DNA of 64,000 nt, taken from IMG/VR virus record IMGVR_UViG_3300010354_000050, positions 55,412 through 119,411 of that record; one strand, given 5' to 3'. Positions 5,822-30,027 of this stretch are shown one piece after another; positions within the stretch are counted from its first letter, which is position 1, and every line of letters starts with the position of its first letter. The DNA is from a virus. A program made the translations under genes and the position numbers. Under the pieces are notes generated by a model. The model saw nothing but the letters and a program-made list of their open reading frames with translations, was not told the DNA's origin and ran no database searches.

Positions 5822-6040
5822 TTGAAAAACCTAGATTCAACTGTAGAAGTAAGTTTTAACTTAACCTTGCAGGATTTGGCAAGTTTGCAAAAAATTGCTA
5901 TTGATGAACACATTAGCCCAACTTTTGCATTAAGGAAAGCTGTAGCAGCTTTAGCCTATATCAGAGAAAAGCAAAAATCCGGTTCTAAATTCTTCATTCA
6001 AGAGGAAAATGGAACAATAAAATCTGTTGATTTTCATTAA
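5822..6040 (+). CDS. Ribbon-helix-helix (CopG-like) DNA-binding protein, 72 aa
   Basis: The product has the RHH layout: a short strand (EVSFNLTLQ), helix 1 (DLASLQKIAIDEHIS), a turn and helix 2 (PTFALRKAVAALAYIREKQK), then a C-terminal G-K-F-I strand seen in many cyanobacterial RHH proteins. Such proteins bind DNA as dimers and usually repress. It starts at TTG 5822 behind AGGAGAAATATG. It lies directly before the topoisomerase gene and could regulate it or the palindrome-bearing promoters, which is speculation. Confidence 0.65.
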   Translation: MKNLDSTVEVSFNLTLQDLASLQKIAIDEHISPTFALRKAVAALAYIREKQKSGSKFFIQEENGTIKSVDFH

Positions 6041-6069
6041 ATAGTTGGCTTAAAAAAAGGGCAAAACAA

Positions 6070-8040
6070 ATGGAAGAAAGAATTGAAAATGTTTCCTTAG
6101 TTGAGGAAATGAAAACAGCCTACCTAGACTACTCTATGGCAGTTTTGCTAGGTAGGGCTATTCCCTCACTATATGATGGTCAAAAGCCTGTAAGCCGAAG
6201 AGTTCTAACAGCTATGAAGTGGTTAGGGCTAAATCCTGAAGCCAAGTACATGAAGGCAGCTAGGGTAGAAGGCGAAACCATGGGTAAACTTCACCCCCAT
6301 AGTGGTGCCTATGGAGCCATGGTAACAATGGCTTCCTGGTGGTCAAACAATAACCCTTTAGTCAATGGTCATGGTAACTGGGGATCACCAACAGACAATG
6401 CAGCAGCACCAAGATATACCGAGTGTAAACTAACTCCTTTTGCTTGGGAAGTTTTGCTTCAAGATTCTCAAACATGGGAAACTAAAGACAATTATGACGG
6501 CTCCTTGCAAGAACCTGTTCTACTCAATACTAAATTCCCTGTTGTGCTAGTCAATGGTGGTGAAGGGATTGGAGTAGGGTATTCGACTAAGATCCCCCCT
6601 CATAATCTCAGAAGTTTGGCAAAAGCTTTAAGGTTTGTTTCCGAAGGGAATTTAGTTGGAGCTAATAAGCATCTTTGCCCTGATTTCCCTACAGGTTGCA
6701 ATGTAGTCAAGGATGAAGGTTTGCTAGAATATTTGCAAACTGGAACAGGATCTATTCGCATGAGGGCTTTGTGTGAAGAAGACAAGGTACAGCATGGGAA
6801 GACTAAAAGAAATGCCTTGAACTTTACTAACCTACCTTTACACATCAATACTGAAGCAATTTCTGACCAAATCCGTGAGGGGATTGAAAAAGGAAAAATC
6901 ACTACTGTAGCTGATGTCAGAGATGAAACAGATCGCAGTGGTATCCGGTTAGTTGTTATTTTGAAGACAACGGCTGATATTGAACTAGCAAAATCTGAAT
7001 TATTTAGCTATACTAGCCTAGATTCTAAGTTTTCAGCTAAGAACTTAGTTATTGATGGTCTTGAACCTGTTTGCCTACCTCCCGTAGAAATTCTACAAAA
7101 GTGGCTAAAGTGGAGAGATGTAAAAACTGTTGTTATTTTCTCTGATGAACTTGCAAACATTACTGCAAGATTAGAGATTGTAGAAGGATTGATTAAAGGA
7201 ACTTCTTCTATGGATCAAGTCATTGAACTGATTCGCAGTTCTAATGATCCTAAGTCAGCTAAAGGAAAATTAGTTAAGGAAGGTTTTTCTGACTCCCAAG
7301 CTCAAGCTGTTTTGGCAATGAAGCTAAGCCAACTAACTAAATTAGACGTTAGAGAACTTAAAGGAGAAGAAAAACAAATTAAAGCAAGAGTTAAGCAGCT
7401 AGAAAAGTTGCTAAGCTCTGATCAGGAACGCCTAGTCTATATTCTTGAAGAAGTAGATCAAATTGCTGAGAGGTTTGGGAATGCCCGTCGATCACTAGGA
7501 ATTGAACCTCCTATTTACCTAGTCGATCCTAAAAAATCTACCATTAGCGATGAGGGCAAGGTTGTAAAAAATCGTTACATGAAACTAGATTCTAACAAAG
7601 GGGTTGTTTCCCAGATGAAGACAACCAAAGGATCTAACCTGATTTGTCCTGACGATCAAAAAGCTGTTTTAGTTTGCGACAATGGGTTTGTCTACAAAAT
7701 TGGGTCTAAGTTTCAAGGCCCATTGGCATCTCAATCGACAAAGGTTTTAGCTAAAACCTTGAGTAGCAAAACACCTCTTGACCTTTTAGCTATTTGGAAA
7801 TTAGATGGTTGTCTTTACTCTAATGTGTTAGATTGGGAAACCTTGGCTAAAACAACATCTAGCGGGAAAAGATGGATGCCTGAAGGAGCAGAATTGGTTT
7901 ATTTGGGCAGTAAAGATTGGGAATTGAAGTTTACGTCTAAGCGGAAAAATCCACAAACTATTTCCTTGAAAACCACTAAACCTAGGACATTAGGGAGTAA
8001 AGGTAATAAACTAGCCAGTCTAGATGAAGTTAAAATTTAG
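6070..8040 (+). CDS. Type IIA DNA topoisomerase, A subunit (gyrase/topo IV-like)
   Basis: A 656-residue protein homologous to the DNA-cleaving A subunit. It starts with the winged-helix region (LDYSMAVLLGRAIP, KPVSRRVL), then KLHPHSGAYGAMV and AAAPRYTE, whose Tyr (about residue 116) is the catalytic tyrosine. The tower (GGEGIGVGYSTKIPPHNLR) and a coiled-coil gate (about residues 370-470) follow. The C-terminal part is short, without a clear six-bladed GyrA-box domain, so it resembles a phage medium subunit with extra C-terminal sequence. The ATPase (B) subunit is not in the window. A terminator follows. Confidence 0.9.
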   Translation: MEERIENVSLVEEMKTAYLDYSMAVLLGRAIPSLYDGQKPVSRRVLTAMKWLGLNPEAKYMKAARVEGETMGKLHPHSGAYGAMVTMASWWSNNNPLVNGHGNWGSPTDNAAAPRYTECKLTPFAWEVLLQDSQTWETKDNYDGSLQEPVLLNTKFPVVLVNGGEGIGVGYSTKIPPHNLRSLAKALRFVSEGNLVGANKHLCPDFPTGCNVVKDEGLLEYLQTGTGSIRMRALCEEDKVQHGKTKRNALNFTNLPLHINTEAISDQIREGIEKGKITTVADVRDETDRSGIRLVVILKTTADIELAKSELFSYTSLDSKFSAKNLVIDGLEPVCLPPVEILQKWLKWRDVKTVVIFSDELANITARLEIVEGLIKGTSSMDQVIELIRSSNDPKSAKGKLVKEGFSDSQAQAVLAMKLSQLTKLDVRELKGEEKQIKARVKQLEKLLSSDQERLVYILEEVDQIAERFGNARRSLGIEPPIYLVDPKKSTISDEGKVVKNRYMKLDSNKGVVSQMKTTKGSNLICPDDQKAVLVCDNGFVYKIGSKFQGPLASQSTKVLAKTLSSKTPLDLLAIWKLDGCLYSNVLDWETLAKTTSSGKRWMPEGAELVYLGSKDWELKFTSKRKNPQTISLKTTKPRTLGSKGNKLASLDEVKI

Positions 8041-11031: not shown

Positions 11032-11952
11032 ATGAAAACCATTGACTTTATCAAAACCAGTGAAGGATTTCTAGTAAACCTTCCGGCATCTAGCAGCAAA
11101 TTTATCAATGGTGAAAAACTTCTGCCAACCTTTAACAAAAACTGGTCAAAGGTTAATACTAAGCCAAAGACCTTGACTGAAACTTCTAATAAAGTAGTTG
11201 AACGGGTATGGAAGTTAAAACCCCTGATTTCTGATTTTTCCCAACTTCCAAAAACTCTAGAATACTTTGATTATGATGACATGGAAACCCGTTATCCTGA
11301 TTACGAAGGTTTCTATGAATCCTTTACTACTTATGGAGAAGGAATTAAGGAAGTTGAAGTGCAATTTGTAAAAATTGCAGAGGTTAACCTGGTTCCTGGA
11401 ATTGTCCCCTTCAGCTACCAAACCAAAGATCCCTTCCCTATTACTGAAAAGAGTGTAAAATACCCACTGGTTTCTACCATTACTGTTCCAGATATTTTGC
11501 TACCTGAAACTCCTTGTTTTTTAAGTAGCAGGGAAACCTATGAAATTATTCGGAATTTTGTAAAAAAGAATATTGATCCCAAAGCAGCACAAGTTACTTC
11601 TGATTACGATTTCTGCTTTGAAGTTTCCAAATTAGTAGAACTCCATGAGCCTGAATCTTACCAGGTTGACCTAAACTGGAATAGGAAAAAAGCAAAGCCT
11701 AAATATGAAACTCGATTCAGGACTGATCGAAAAGTAAAATGCTTTTCTATGACCCATGATGAAAGGAATTATGAAGGAAAAAGCAATGGATTCCCTGTAA
11801 TTGAAGGTTTTTCTGCAAATTCTCAAAAGGAACTTAAAGAAAAAATTGACAATTACTTGAAGGAATTGATTGAAAACATCAATAAGCCTTTAGTAGAGTG
11901 CCCTTGCTGTAAAGGTTTAGGAGTTGTTGAAAATCAAGACCTAGTTCAATAA
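11032..11952 (+). CDS. Hypothetical protein with a C-terminal zinc-binding CxxC..CxGxG-like motif, 306 aa
   Basis: A 306-residue protein, mostly strand- and loop-rich. Near the C-terminus ECPCCKGLGVV (about residues 290-300) resembles half of a DnaJ-type CxxCxGxG zinc finger. YDYDDMETRYPDYEGFYESF in the first third is strongly aromatic and acidic. The ATG follows an A9 run with no clear Shine-Dalgarno sequence. A terminator follows at 11973. No family recognised. Confidence 0.6.
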   Translation: MKTIDFIKTSEGFLVNLPASSSKFINGEKLLPTFNKNWSKVNTKPKTLTETSNKVVERVWKLKPLISDFSQLPKTLEYFDYDDMETRYPDYEGFYESFTTYGEGIKEVEVQFVKIAEVNLVPGIVPFSYQTKDPFPITEKSVKYPLVSTITVPDILLPETPCFLSSRETYEIIRNFVKKNIDPKAAQVTSDYDFCFEVSKLVELHEPESYQVDLNWNRKKAKPKYETRFRTDRKVKCFSMTHDERNYEGKSNGFPVIEGFSANSQKELKEKIDNYLKELIENINKPLVECPCCKGLGVVENQDLVQ

Positions 11953-18467: not shown

Positions 18468-18536
18468 TGGTGTGTAGCTCAAAGGAAGAGCAATCGTGTT
18501 AGCCGATAGGTTGAAGGTTCGAGTCCTTTCACACCA
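18468..18536 (+). tRNA. Aberrant tRNA, probably derived from tRNA-Asn (GTT)
   Basis: Acceptor TGGTGTG/CACACCA, D arm GCTC/GAGC and T arm GAAGG/CCTTT with loop TTCGAGT are good. The anticodon arm is abnormal. Only ATCG/CGAT pairs around a TGTTAGC loop, so the GTT of an Asn-like TGTTA is displaced, and the arm looks two bases shorter than tRNA-Asn. It may be a decayed tRNA or one with altered function. Confidence 0.55.
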
Positions 18537-18616
18537 ATTCTCTATTTAATAAATTTAGAATTTGACATTTAAGAGGATCTAGGTCAGAAATCCATCGGAA
18601 ATACCACAAATAAGTG

Positions 18617-24126: not shown

Positions 24127-24381
24127 ATGAAAACCCATAAAACCAGGAACGGGAAATTTATTCCTATAAGTAAACTAGAAGACGATCATTTGCTTAACAT
24201 TATCAGGTTTTACCAGAGAAAAGCAAAAGAAGGTCTTTTAGTTTGCTATAGGAGTCCTAGTTTGCATGACAGTTTCGATGACCATTTCTTTGACATTGTT
24301 TATGGAGAAGAAGCCTTAGAAAACCTAGGGTATTATTTCTATGTTGAAGAAGCTGAAAAAAGATTCAGGAGTAATAAATGA
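24127..24381 (+). CDS. Hypothetical protein, 84 aa
   Basis: A basic N-terminus (MKTHKTRNGKFIPISKLEDD) is followed by HLLNIIRFYQRKAKEGLL and a C-terminal helix. The last four bases overlap the macrodomain start (ATGA at 24378-24381), so the two are translationally coupled. The N-terminal pattern is seen in small phage proteins of unknown function. Confidence 0.55.
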   Translation: MKTHKTRNGKFIPISKLEDDHLLNIIRFYQRKAKEGLLVCYRSPSLHDSFDDHFFDIVYGEEALENLGYYFYVEEAEKRFRSNK

Positions 24382-24839
24382 TTAAATATATCAAAAAAGG
24401 CAACATCTTTGAGTCCAACTGTGAAGCCCTAGTTAACCCTGTCAATACTGTGGGGGTAATGGGAGCGGGTTTAGCCAAACAATTTAAAAAAAGGTATCCA
24501 AAAAACTTTGTAGCATACCAAGACTACTGTAACCAAGGAAAGCTAAAACCAGGTGGAGTCTTTGTTTTCCTGGAAGAAGGTGACATTATTGTTAACCTGG
24601 CAACCAAAGACCACTGGAAAGATCCTTCTGAAGTTGACTATGTTGAAAAAGGGTTGCAGCAACTTTTGCAGTTTATCCAAATTCAAGAAGTTGTATCAGT
24701 GGCTATCCCTGCCTTAGGATGTGGTCTTGGTGGTCTAGACTGGGCTGATAACGTTCTTCCTTTAATTGAGTATTACTTCCAAGACAATGAAGAAGTAAGC
24801 AATGTGGAAGCAAAGGTTTATGTTCCCTACGGTTATTGA
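24378..24839 (+). CDS. Macrodomain protein, DarG-like ADP-ribosyl hydrolase
   Basis: A 153-residue single macrodomain. GNIFESNCEALVNPVNTVGV, then MGAGLAKQFKKRYP, NLATKDHWKDPSEVDYVEKG and AIPALGCGLGGLDW give all the ADP-ribose-binding elements and closely match the DarG-type macrodomains that remove ADP-ribose from thymidine in DNA. No DarT toxin gene is adjacent. A phage would benefit from such an enzyme by reversing DNA ADP-ribosylation by host DarT, or it could process ADP-ribose phosphates. It is translationally coupled to the 84-aa gene upstream. Confidence 0.85.
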   Translation: MIKYIKKGNIFESNCEALVNPVNTVGVMGAGLAKQFKKRYPKNFVAYQDYCNQGKLKPGGVFVFLEEGDIIVNLATKDHWKDPSEVDYVEKGLQQLLQFIQIQEVVSVAIPALGCGLGGLDWADNVLPLIEYYFQDNEEVSNVEAKVYVPYGY

Positions 24840-26254: not shown

Positions 26255-27874
26255 ATGAAACTTAACCCTATTGGTTATCCTGTAATCTCTGACCAAACTT
26301 TTTCTAAAGTTTTTGGAGAATTCACTAAAAGGTCAATTCCCACATCTACAGAAAAAACTAGAAAACTTCTTCAGGCAAACACTATTCCTTTTCCTGTAGA
26401 CTACCCTGAAAACTTATTTGATGGGGAATTACCTTTTCCAGATCTTAAAGCAAAAACTTTGGATCAACATTTTGAAAAAATTGCTGAAGATTTTGTAGGC
26501 CAATATTTGCAAGATGCCGAAACTTTAGCTACTTGTAAAATCCCACCCATCCCACCTATTCAAGAACTTGTTCCCGAAGTAGGCTGGACAAAATATACTT
26601 TTGAAAATGAAACATGGATTAAAGAACCTGTCCCCTACCCTTTAGAATCTGGGATATTTGATACTGAAACTTTTGTAGAAGGTGGGGCTTTCCCAGTTAT
26701 TGGTACTGCTTTAACCCATAAAGCTGCCTACATCTGGTTAGCTTCTGAATTTGTTAACCCTGATCTCCCTGTAGAGCAATGGGATCAATTTGGGCTAATT
26801 CCCTTAGGAACTGACAAGTTCATTATTGGTCATAATATTTCCTATGATAGAGTTAGGGTTCAAGAAGCATACAACCTTACCAACAATTTACCAGAAAACT
26901 TCTACTTCGATACCCTTTCTGCACATATTGGTGTATCCGGGTTGGCTTCTGGTCAACGTTGGCTCTATGTTCTAGCAGCAAAAGACCCAGATTCCCTTAC
27001 TGAACAAGAAAAGCGCCAACTACGCTTTTCTCCTAAATGGGCTTCTGAAGGAAGTACAAACTCCTTGATTGAAACCTATAACTTCCATGTAGCTGCACCC
27101 AAAGAACTTTTTCAAGATGGAGATTTTAGGTTAAAGGAATCTGATAAGGAAGTCAGGGATTTGTTTGTAAAAGCAAAAACCATGAAGGAGTTGGCTAACC
27201 CCTCTGATTTCTACAAACTAATCGACTACGCGATTAAGGACGTTTTCTATACTTTTGAGCTATATCAAGCCCTATGGCCTAAGTACAGAGAATCTACTCC
27301 TAGTACAGTAGCCTTAGCAGGTCATTACTTTTTAGCAGGCTCTAAGATTCCCCTTGTTGACAACTGGGAAAGTTGGATTGATAAAACTGAAGAAGTTTTT
27401 CAAGCTCAAATGGAAGAAATGGATCAGATTTGCAAAGACCTAATGAAAACCCATGTAGAAGAATGGGGGAAAGAGTTAGACAAAGATCTGCTACAAATTT
27501 CCTATAGGTTTGAAGAAGAACCTGAAAAATTAGTAGAAGAAGTTGGTTTGCAGAAAAAGAAAACTGTAAAGCTAACTGATGTTTTGAAAGCACTAGATAA
27601 ACTAGAAATTGAATGGAGGTTTAACTCTAAACAGTGGGCTGAACAAGACCCCTGGCTAAAACAGCTAGATTGGACACCGCAAAACTACACAGGAAAGTTT
27701 GCCTTTATGCCTAAGTGGGCTTGTAAATTTTTAGCTGAACCTGAAAAGAATAAGTTTTCAGTTAAAAACCGTGCTGCCCATTTACTCCTTAAACTAAAGT
27801 GGGAAGGAAAGCCTATCTTATGGGTTGACGGTCAAGGCTGGTGCTTTGAAGTAGAAGATGAAGCTGATGCTTAA
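26255..27874 (+). CDS. DNA polymerase gamma-like protein, exonuclease and linker half
   Basis: A 539-residue protein matching the N-terminal part of mitochondrial DNA polymerase gamma. Exo I is GIFDTET (about residue 134), Exo II IIGHNISYDRV (about 190) and Exo III YAIKDVFYT (about 325). FDTLSAHIGVSGLASGQR closely parallels LDTMSMHMAISGLSSFQR, and NWESWIDKTEEVFQAQMEEM parallels the following linker region of human POLG. WTPQNY...FAFMPKWACKFL...GWCF matches the linker end. It would proofread 3' ends. The gene stops before the polymerase domain, which lies 849 bases downstream. Confidence 0.9.
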   Translation: MKLNPIGYPVISDQTFSKVFGEFTKRSIPTSTEKTRKLLQANTIPFPVDYPENLFDGELPFPDLKAKTLDQHFEKIAEDFVGQYLQDAETLATCKIPPIPPIQELVPEVGWTKYTFENETWIKEPVPYPLESGIFDTETFVEGGAFPVIGTALTHKAAYIWLASEFVNPDLPVEQWDQFGLIPLGTDKFIIGHNISYDRVRVQEAYNLTNNLPENFYFDTLSAHIGVSGLASGQRWLYVLAAKDPDSLTEQEKRQLRFSPKWASEGSTNSLIETYNFHVAAPKELFQDGDFRLKESDKEVRDLFVKAKTMKELANPSDFYKLIDYAIKDVFYTFELYQALWPKYRESTPSTVALAGHYFLAGSKIPLVDNWESWIDKTEEVFQAQMEEMDQICKDLMKTHVEEWGKELDKDLLQISYRFEEEPEKLVEEVGLQKKKTVKLTDVLKALDKLEIEWRFNSKQWAEQDPWLKQLDWTPQNYTGKFAFMPKWACKFLAEPEKNKFSVKNRAAHLLLKLKWEGKPILWVDGQGWCFEVEDEADA

Positions 27875-27911
27875 AAACCTGTTTTCTATTGCAATTGAAT
27901 AGTTTGGTTGA

Positions 27912-28025
27912 AAAAATCAGGATAGTGATGATGATGGAATATCTCAGACAGTCTTAGGCTTTATTAGTTCATTTGTTCCTTCAAAACCTGAATCAAGAGT
28001 TTATGCTAGAATTAACCCTTGGTAA
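27912..28025 (+). pseudogene. Gene remnant in the polymerase interruption
   Basis: A start-less frame from 27912 reads KNQDSDDDGISQTVLGFISS onward to TAA 28023-28025. No promoter or start codon is present. It may be leftover cassette DNA or an eroded piece of the polymerase linker, which it does not visibly resemble. Confidence 0.35.
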
Positions 28026-28050
28026 TGTCATGTAACCCTGACATTGAATA

Positions 28051-28078
28051 AGAAACCTTTTCAGGTTTCTTTTTTTTT
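28051..28078 (+). terminator. Rho-independent terminator
   Basis: AAGAAACCT, TTT loop, AGGTTTCTT with a long T run. Confidence 0.8.
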
Positions 28079-28079
28079 G

Positions 28080-28108
28080 TTGATATAGGTAAACTGTTCC
28101 TATACAAT
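28080..28108 (+). promoter_or_regulatory. Sigma-70-type promoter
   Basis: TTGATA (28080-28085), 17-bp spacer, TACAAT (28103-28108). Confidence 0.7.
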
Positions 28109-28132
28109 AGGATTGTAGATAAGATTTCAATC

Positions 28133-28468
28133 ATGTTTAACCTATATGTTTGCCTTCCACCTATTACTGGCGTAGTTCTAGCTTATGTCTTCAGGAACCT
28201 AGGGCTATATCAATTTCAATTTCTGTCTTTGTTTGGAGTTTACCTGTATTACTTGTGCTTCAATTTGGTTTTCTTCAGGAAACTTAGAGGAGCCCGAATA
28301 ACCCTCACAGGATTACTTTCTTTCATATACCTTGTACTCAGTTTTCTCTTTCCTGTTTACCATCAAATACCTGAACAACTCTTGGCTGTAGAAAGAGTAA
28401 TCCTTTTAGCTGATTTCAGAGAAAACCTTTACAAGGTTTCCTTTTTTATTCTTTGTAGAACTACCTAA
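28133..28468 (+). CDS. Small multi-pass membrane protein, 111 aa
   Basis: Three or four hydrophobic segments (about residues 5-20, 27-48, 59-80) mark a membrane protein. The frame runs through a terminator hairpin (28421-28447), so the natural stop was probably earlier and the last 20 residues may be read-through after an indel. It lies between the two polymerase halves with its own promoter. No family recognised. Confidence 0.45.
   Translation: MFNLYVCLPPITGVVLAYVFRNLGLYQFQFLSLFGVYLYYLCFNLVFFRKLRGARITLTGLLSFIYLVLSFLFPVYHQIPEQLLAVERVILLADFRENLYKVSFFILCRTT
28421..28447 (+). terminator. Rho-independent terminator inside a reading frame
   Basis: GAGAAAACCTT, ACA, AAGGTTTCC followed by a T6 run. 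It lies within the last codons of the 28133 frame. Confidence 0.65.
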
Positions 28469-28499
28469 ACAGTAAAAAAGCAAGTAGCTAATGAATTTC

Positions 28500-28528
28500 T
28501 TGACAACTAACATATACTAGGTTAAAAT
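28500..28528 (+). promoter_or_regulatory. Sigma-70-type promoter for the polymerase domain half
   Basis: TTGACA (28500-28505), 17-bp spacer, TAAAAT (28523-28528). It serves the decayed gene at 28555 and then the polymerase half at 28723. Confidence 0.75.
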
Positions 28529-28554
28529 AGAAATGTGTACTTCAGGAGCAAGTA

Positions 28555-28720
28555 ATGTTTAAGTGCAAATGCTTTCTTTATGCTGATGACGAATATTTTA
28601 CAGATATTACCCTCAAAGTAAAGCCAGTGCAAAACAATAACTTACATTGTTGAATCTGTAGTTATCCACCCCTACGGCCTAGATGACTATGATTTCACAC
28701 TGTCCCTTTCTGATTATTAA
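28555..28720 (+). pseudogene. Small gene with a single-base frameshift
   Basis: The ATG frame MFKCKCFLYADDEYFTDITL stops at TGA 28651. Another frame, one base away near CAATAAC (28635-28641), continues TYIVESVVIHPYGLDDYDFT to TAA 28718-28720. The joined protein has 54 residues. The ATG has AGGAGCAAGTA upstream, so expression signals are intact. Function unknown. Confidence 0.55.
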
Positions 28721-28722
28721 GC

Positions 28723-30027
28723 ATGAAAAAATCTATTAAAAGAATACCCCACCCTAGCGGAAAAGATGAAAATGTAGGAGGATTGTTTTCTAAAGAATTT
28801 ATTGTAGATATGGAAGTTGGAAGGCTCTCTAGCGATAGTCCATTAGCCCAACGTGCTATTGATATTGCCAACAGTACCTCCTATTGGAACTCTATTAGGA
28901 AGAGGGTTACAGAAAGGATCTACGTACCTACAGAAAACCCACTAGATAGTGACAACAAAGCCAATATCACTATCCCTAACATTCTCCCCCATGGCACCGT
29001 TACCAGAAGAACTGTAGAACCTATGATGGTTACAATGTGTTCTACAAAGCCAAATAGGATAGGTACAGAACTTAAGACAAGGATCAAAGCCCCTAAAGGT
29101 TGGAAAATTGTAGGTGCTGACTTTGACGGTCAAGAGTTACAAATTGCTTCTACCTATGCTGACAAGTGGGAAGGTGGGTTCATTGGAGCTTCTCCTATGA
29201 CCTACATTATTCTAGCAGGTAGTAAGGATAAAGGTACAGATGCCCATACCTTGCTATCTAAGAAAATCAATACAGATAGAGATACGGCTAAGGGTGTAGG
29301 CTTTGCTATCTTGTATGGTGCTGGTTCATTAACTATTGCTAACACTATCAAGAAAAAGTTCAAAGATCGTCATGAAGCTGAACTAAGAGGTTTTGGTGAA
29401 GAGGCAATTAAGTTCAAGAAAGGTTTGAAAGATTCTGAAGGTTACTACTATGGTGGAACCGATTCAGGTTGCTACAATTTCATGGAAAACATTGCCTTAC
29501 GTTCCAGAATCCCTACTTTACCTTGTCTAAAAACTAAAATTTCTACTGCATTGAGGCCAAATGTAGTCGATAATAAATTTGTTACAGGTAGGGTCAACTG
29601 GACTATTCAGGCTTCGGGTGCAGAAGTTTTATCTATTTTCCTAACTTCCGTTCACTGGTTAGCAAGTTATTTCAAGATTCCTGCCCAATTCATCATCAGT
29701 ATCCATGATGAGACTTGGTTCATGGTTCCTGAAAAGTTTGCTGAGCAATTTTGTGTCATCTTTCAAATGGCCCATTTGTATACCTGGTCAAGGTTTCATT
29801 ATGGTGTAGGAATTAATGATCTCCCCCTTAGTCGAGCATTCTTTTCTTCAGTAGCTATTGATGAGAGGATCAGGAAAACACCAAAAGAAAAAACTATTAC
29901 TCCCTCCCACCCTGAAGGAATTAATGAACCCTCTGGTGAAGAATTTTCTATGAAGCAAATGGATGAACTTGGTTGGGTGAAGAAGTTAGGAACAAGAAAA
30001 CAGCTTATTGAAAAAGGAATTTTGTGA
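28723..30027 (+). CDS. DNA polymerase gamma-like protein, polymerase half (family A)
   Basis: A 434-residue protein matching the C-terminal polymerase domain of POLG. LPHGTVTRRTVEPM and PNRIGTELKTRIKAP mirror the POLG palm. Motif A is VGADFDGQEL (about residue 130), motif B DTAKGVGFAILYGAG (about 190) and motif C ISIHDE (about 325). The C-terminus LPLSRAFFSSVAIDERIRK parallels LPQSVAFFSAVDIDRCLRK of human POLG. Residues 1-90 (HPSGKDENVGGLFSKEF) match the POLG segment just before the palm, so only about 150-180 linker residues are missing between the halves. All catalytic acids are present. It has its own promoter at 28500. Confidence 0.92.
   Translation: MKKSIKRIPHPSGKDENVGGLFSKEFIVDMEVGRLSSDSPLAQRAIDIANSTSYWNSIRKRVTERIYVPTENPLDSDNKANITIPNILPHGTVTRRTVEPMMVTMCSTKPNRIGTELKTRIKAPKGWKIVGADFDGQELQIASTYADKWEGGFIGASPMTYIILAGSKDKGTDAHTLLSKKINTDRDTAKGVGFAILYGAGSLTIANTIKKKFKDRHEAELRGFGEEAIKFKKGLKDSEGYYYGGTDSGCYNFMENIALRSRIPTLPCLKTKISTALRPNVVDNKFVTGRVNWTIQASGAEVLSIFLTSVHWLASYFKIPAQFIISIHDETWFMVPEKFAEQFCVIFQMAHLYTWSRFHYGVGINDLPLSRAFFSSVAIDERIRKTPKEKTITPSHPEGINEPSGEEFSMKQMDELGWVKKLGTRKQLIEKGIL

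Follow-up and report, generated by a model that had tools for sequence, protein, structure and literature searches.

POLG-type DNA polymerases have been published in the cyanophages A-HIS1/2, S-TIM5, S-CBWM1 and Mic1, and a common origin of the phage enzymes and opisthokont mitochondrial POLG has already been proposed (PMC7156551, PMC4928673). Chan (2011) and Sabehi (2012) are cited there for the proposal that the POLGs of S-TIM5 and A-HIS1/A-HIS2 are kin of the mitochondrial enzyme (PMC7156551, PMC4928673). Phage POLGs bear on where the mitochondrial replicase came from. Here we describe a locus that encodes a phage-borne, split, POLG-type family A DNA polymerase. It lies in the window, the 64-kb stretch analysed here, which is the right-hand part of a 119,411-bp IMG/VR virus record and comes from a single metagenomic contig. 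The POLG of S-CBWM1 belongs to the same family as the window enzyme (43-51% identity), but is one continuous ORF of 953 aa without an insert; those of S-TIM5 and A-HIS1/A-HIS2 are likewise POLG-type, but are unsplit and show ~30-40% identity. An earlier note on this DNA implied that a phage POLG would be new. The type has been in print since 2011 and is known; the modestly new part is the split at a homing-prone linker.

Results

Two ORFs encode the parts of one POLG-type polymerase

The two halves, polG-N and polG-C, are separated by 848 bp (Table 1). PolG-N matches the Pfam family DNApol_Exo, 'DNA mitochondrial polymerase exonuclease domain' (PF18136, E=7e-57), and every match to PDB sequences below E=0.1 was a POLG, the best at 6e-38. 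PolG-C matches DNA_pol_A (E=2e-11); among PDB sequences it matches POLG chains at 1e-66 to 7e-70 and Pol I no better than E=0.013. The PF18136 exonuclease is N-terminal to the family A polymerase domain, which is the domain order of POLG, and the Exo I-III and Pol A-C catalytic motifs are all intact across the two proteins. The earlier note had read a split POLG-type polymerase in two ORFs here and had proposed profile searches of both halves; the ORFs are present at the coordinates it gave, the Pfam and PDB matches agree with its reading, and both of the POLG lineage-specific motif pairs that it quoted can be seen in the PDB alignments. Its description of 26255-30027 as polymerase holds for the two ORFs but not for the 848 bp between them (27875-28722), which are non-polymerase. 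A single polypeptide, as opposed to two ORFs 848 bp apart, is typical of the POLG family but is not required for homology or chemistry.

Table 1. Features of the split POLG locus (window coordinates)
Feature	Coordinates	Strand	Details
polG-N, POLG-type 3'-5' exonuclease and thumb/spacer part	26255..27874	+	539 aa; ExoI FDTETF (aa 135), ExoII GHNISYDR (192), ExoIII DYAIKDVFYT (324); C-terminal end ...GWCFEVEDEADA, then stop
Insert between polG-N and polG-C	27875..28722	.	848 bp; 34% GC; at the GWC-to-IPHP linker
Intrinsic-terminator-like hairpin after polG-N	28050..28074	+	9 bp stem and T-run
Sigma70-like promoter TTGATA-17-TACAAT	28080..28108	+	10/12; precedes the 111-aa ORF
Orphan ORF, candidate small membrane protein	28133..28468	+	111 aa; three hydrophobic segments
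Second, weaker terminator-like hairpin	28418..28450	+	AAACCTTtacAAGGTTT and T-run; found by eye, under the scanner's G+C threshold
Sigma70-like promoter TTGACA-17-TAAAAT, presumed for polG-C	28500..28528	+	11/12
Small ORF, then a different open frame	28555..28720	+	ORF 28555-28653, 32 aa, AGGAG before ATG
polG-C, POLG-type palm/fingers	28723..30027	+	434 aa; motif A GADFDGQELQIAS (aa 131), B RDTAKGVGFAILYG (186), C SIHDETW (326); N-terminal start MKKSIKRIPHPSG

Fold predictions point the same way. Among the matches listed, L025 is the closest intact relative (61% identity). Its AlphaFold model (pLDDT 85) aligned with human POLG over ~1000 columns (TM 0.78, E=3e-54), and the best non-POLG match of the model was Klenow (E=5e-11, TM 0.37); the modelled fold of this intact relative is POLG-like. 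PolG-C modelled alone reached a pLDDT of 54 from a shallow alignment of 15 rows, a confidence too low to use.

Relatives carry the polymerase as a single gene

A tblastn search of named phages found POLG in S-CBWM1, S-TIM5 and its relatives, Mic1 and A-HIS1/2, with weak matches to phages of the Pol I and T7 types. In IMG/VR, POLG was a single ORF in 163 relative loci, which represent 85 distinct intact proteins of 893-1012 aa, and likewise in a further 55 loci from later scans, in both cases among the matches listed. These relatives are the best 80 per scan, and contigs fetched repeatedly make the locus counts larger than the contig counts; the number of distinct intact relatives is at least 85. 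IMG/VR relatives such as L025, L007 and L023, with identities of up to ~70% in the polymerase half, have one continuous ORF without an insert. Relatives of the L025 and L007 type share the genes downstream of the polymerase in the window, and relatives have topoisomerase II upstream. The ancestor thus had the whole polymerase in one gene, the state found in nearly all relatives among the matches listed. One 50-kb POLG-bearing contig (L174, CALGUV010000039.1) has been binned in a Microbacteriaceae MAG; POLG-bearing phages have so far been reported from cyanobacteria only, and this contig may be mis-binned.

The pol-domain tree contained phage POLGs, the POLGs of human, mouse and yeast (so that eukaryotic POLG is represented by opisthokont sequences only), and the polymerases of T7, Pol I, S-EIV1, Autographiviridae and other phage PolA. 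Support of 100/100 separated phage and opisthokont POLG from Pol I and from the polymerases of T7, S-EIV1 and Autographiviridae. A family A tree had been suggested in the earlier note as a check, and in the tree built here the window polymerase groups with POLG and other phages at that support. The window polymerase sits within an S-CBWM1-like phage clade, not adjoining the eukaryotes. Mic1 is the phage nearest to opisthokont POLG, as a sister at 89/76, which is not significant, and monophyly of the phage POLGs is not rejected (AU p=0.18). Forcing the window polymerase together with T7 and Pol I gave p=0.11 in the AU test, but this constraint only re-roots the POLG clade. The earlier note had weighed kinship with POLG against capture from a eukaryote: the grouping with POLG is supported, and the placement of the window polymerase among diverse phages rules out that this phage captured it recently from a eukaryote.

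The cut falls in a tolerant linker

The cut is clean and lies between the proofreading and copying parts of the enzyme, that is, between exonuclease/spacer and palm. The GWC-IPHP linker, which runs from the end of the exonuclease/spacer to the start of the palm, has nearly always 13 residues (69 relatives measured). In the window, polG-N stops 12 residues after GW and polG-C opens with MKKSIKR before IPHP; the halves together hold 19 linker residues, and therefore no polymerase sequence has been lost. In the AlphaFold model of L025 this linker forms the turn of a predicted beta-hairpin. Its length varies across POLG, being short in most phages and longer in A-HIS, yeast and human. As eukaryotic POLG and A-HIS carry a longer, variable spacer here, the site tolerates change. 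A split intein was considered and rejected, as the broken ends of polG-N and polG-C lie only a few residues from the linker and neither half has extra sequence.

These observations also bear on whether we are dealing with a broken polymerase pseudogene, or with a split produced by faulty assembly. A single metagenomic contig, an insert with no second copy found and a small ORF within it that looks frameshifted are compatible with such an origin. However, polG-N and polG-C keep 216 of 229 near-invariant columns (94%; S-CBWM1 keeps 216/224) and all catalytic motifs, each half is intact up to a few residues from the linker, and the flanking genes on both sides (topoisomerase upstream; kinase, tail and other genes downstream) come from the same phage lineage; we therefore regard decay or misassembly as very unlikely. 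Because the invariant residues are nearly all kept and the gene neighbours are normal, the split enzyme is probably active.

The insert contains expression signals and small ORFs

The 848-bp insert resembles two successive cassettes of promoter and ORF. Its 111-aa orphan ORF is longer than expected by chance (3/500 shuffles), and no homologue of it was found. The second open frame of the small ORF ends with TAA at 28718-28720, 2 nt ahead of the polG-C ATG, and the two frames together resemble a single small, frameshifted gene. PolG-C is without an obvious ribosome-binding site of its own. Across the window, perfect or near-perfect sigma70 promoters (TTGACA-17-TATAAT) are unusually frequent, with 19 on the forward strand and 4 on the reverse, and cluster in the first 18 kb. 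Shuffled sequences gave 0-2 forward promoters against these 19, and therefore promoters this good are genuine in this phage. The separate promoters suggest that polG-N and polG-C may be transcribed apart. No homologue of the insert was found in its own record, in phages or in IMG/VR, nor any second genome with the same insert.

It is also conceivable that the 848 bp splice themselves out as an intron, to give one continuous polymerase like that of Mic1. The Mic1 POLG gene has an intron of 298 bp (PMC7156551), which Rfam calls group I (45.5 bits, E=1.6e-10). We consider such splicing in the window extremely improbable. An Rfam search (RF00028) of the window insert gave no intron match even at E=5 although the Mic1 positive control worked, the Mic1 intron lies inside motif A whereas the window insert is in the linker, and polG-N and polG-C each have their own stop and start, with a terminator and promoters between them. 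Readthrough was rejected as well: ARAGORN reports a tRNA at window positions 18468-18537 (+) with the anticodon TTA, which would read the UAA stop, but past the polG-N TAA another stop soon comes and polG-C is unreachable. Position 33 of this tRNA is seemingly G, so that it may be degenerate; S-CBWM1 too has tRNA pseudogenes.

Phage POLG genes are interrupted repeatedly

A second POLG is split at the same turn as that of the window, in IMGVR_UViG_3300033571_013339 (L166/L074). The interruption (5992-6701) is by an HNH homing endonuclease, recognised by Pfam as HNH above cut-off and by PHROG as a homing endonuclease (2e-6). Its ORF (6018-6701) lies between the halves, and the stop of this ORF overlaps the start of the second POLG half. 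Compared with the intact gene of L038, the L166 gene is mostly 95-100% identical (88% at lowest) outside the insert flanks, whereas identity falls to 58-80% within ~250 nt on each side of the insert. From the alignment, these divergent flanks look like a co-conversion tract of the kind that homing leaves, a mechanism described previously (PMC2988022). In L166, nature thus offers a clear case of HNH homing into a POLG gene. On the tree, the junction splits of the window and L166 require two separate changes.

In another relative, IMGVR_UViG_3300009154_000101 (L150), the palm is split ahead of motif B by an insert at 6586-7311 that shows weak HNH-type similarity and in which Rfam found no intron. 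The interruptions in L166, L150 and Mic1 thus show that mobile elements have repeatedly targeted POLG in these phages. In two Mic1-like phages (L190 and L191), motif A is interrupted by an insert of ~900 bp at the place of the 298-bp group I intron of Mic1; this insert is probably the Mic1 intron plus an extra ORF.

The rest of the record

A search of the record for a DnaB-type helicase gave no match, with a good control; one for T7-like RNA polymerase, as a further part of a complete mitochondrial-type replisome, gave none either, and its control likewise matched nowhere. No psbA was found in the record, so that kinship with S-CBWM1 is the sole pointer to the host; it suggests a cyanophage-like virus. 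The window also encodes a homologue of the Gabija anti-defence protein Gad1 (11032-11952, +; PF25705, E=4e-66) and, a few genes ahead of polG-N, a macro-domain protein (24378-24839, +; PF01661, E=6e-17).

Discussion

Our results make it likely that a single-gene ancestor was opened at the linker, most probably by or after homing, and that the two halves assemble into a working two-chain POLG that replicates the phage genome. DNA would have been inserted in the surface-turn linker with the polymerase sequence left intact, most likely by, or following, invasion of the linker by a homing endonuclease. The endonuclease would since have been lost, or have given way to the present insert, whose two cassettes bring a terminator and promoters of their own. 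Searches for HNH and GIY-YIG genes found none across the 119-kb record, and no endonuclease ORF was detected in the window insert, so we infer the homing origin of this insert by analogy with L166. PolG-N would supply the proofreading exonuclease and thumb/spacer, and polG-C the palm and fingers. As thumb/spacer and palm are on different chains, the halves must associate, most likely non-covalently, to give a working polymerase for the phage genome.

A functional split enzyme could also have arisen by illegitimate recombination that brought in a moron-like two-gene cassette, a tolerant linker having been hit twice. The absence of HNH and GIY-YIG matches in the record, the two-cassette appearance of the insert, the variable linker length across POLG and a similar untranslated split in gene 43 of Aeromonas phage 44RR (PMC2988022) are in keeping with this. 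However, a homing endonuclease fills exactly this linker in the related L166, with a co-conversion-like tract; illegitimate recombination is thus a tenable but less probable source of the insert than homing. It seems doubtful that the phage uses the separate promoters to set the ratio of the two POLG subunits independently, an arrangement that would have been stabilised after repeated homing at the linker.

The place of the split is a permissive site of the POLG fold, within the spacer region, and a naturally split polymerase makes the exonuclease and polymerase approachable as separate chains. The dataset adds one diverged POLG and at least 85 distinct intact relatives toward a proper tree.

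Among known systems, human and mouse POLG and yeast MIP1 resemble the window enzyme in domain order, motifs and lineage-specific stretches, and in fold as judged from the model of the intact relative, but are encoded by nuclear genes as single chains with a longer spacer. The Mic1 POLG is annotated as two ORFs (ORF86/ORF85), as in the window, but there a group I intron interrupts motif A, and splicing would restore one protein. In Aeromonas phages 25 and 44RR, the replicative polymerase gene 43 is likewise two ORFs around an intercistronic insert, which in one phage has a homing endonuclease (PMC2988022). In phage 25, gp43A and gp43B co-purify, and polymerase activity comes with them (PMC2988022). 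Although gp43A/gp43B form a family B polymerase of T4-like phages, they are a fair precedent for the reassembly that we propose for polG-N and polG-C.
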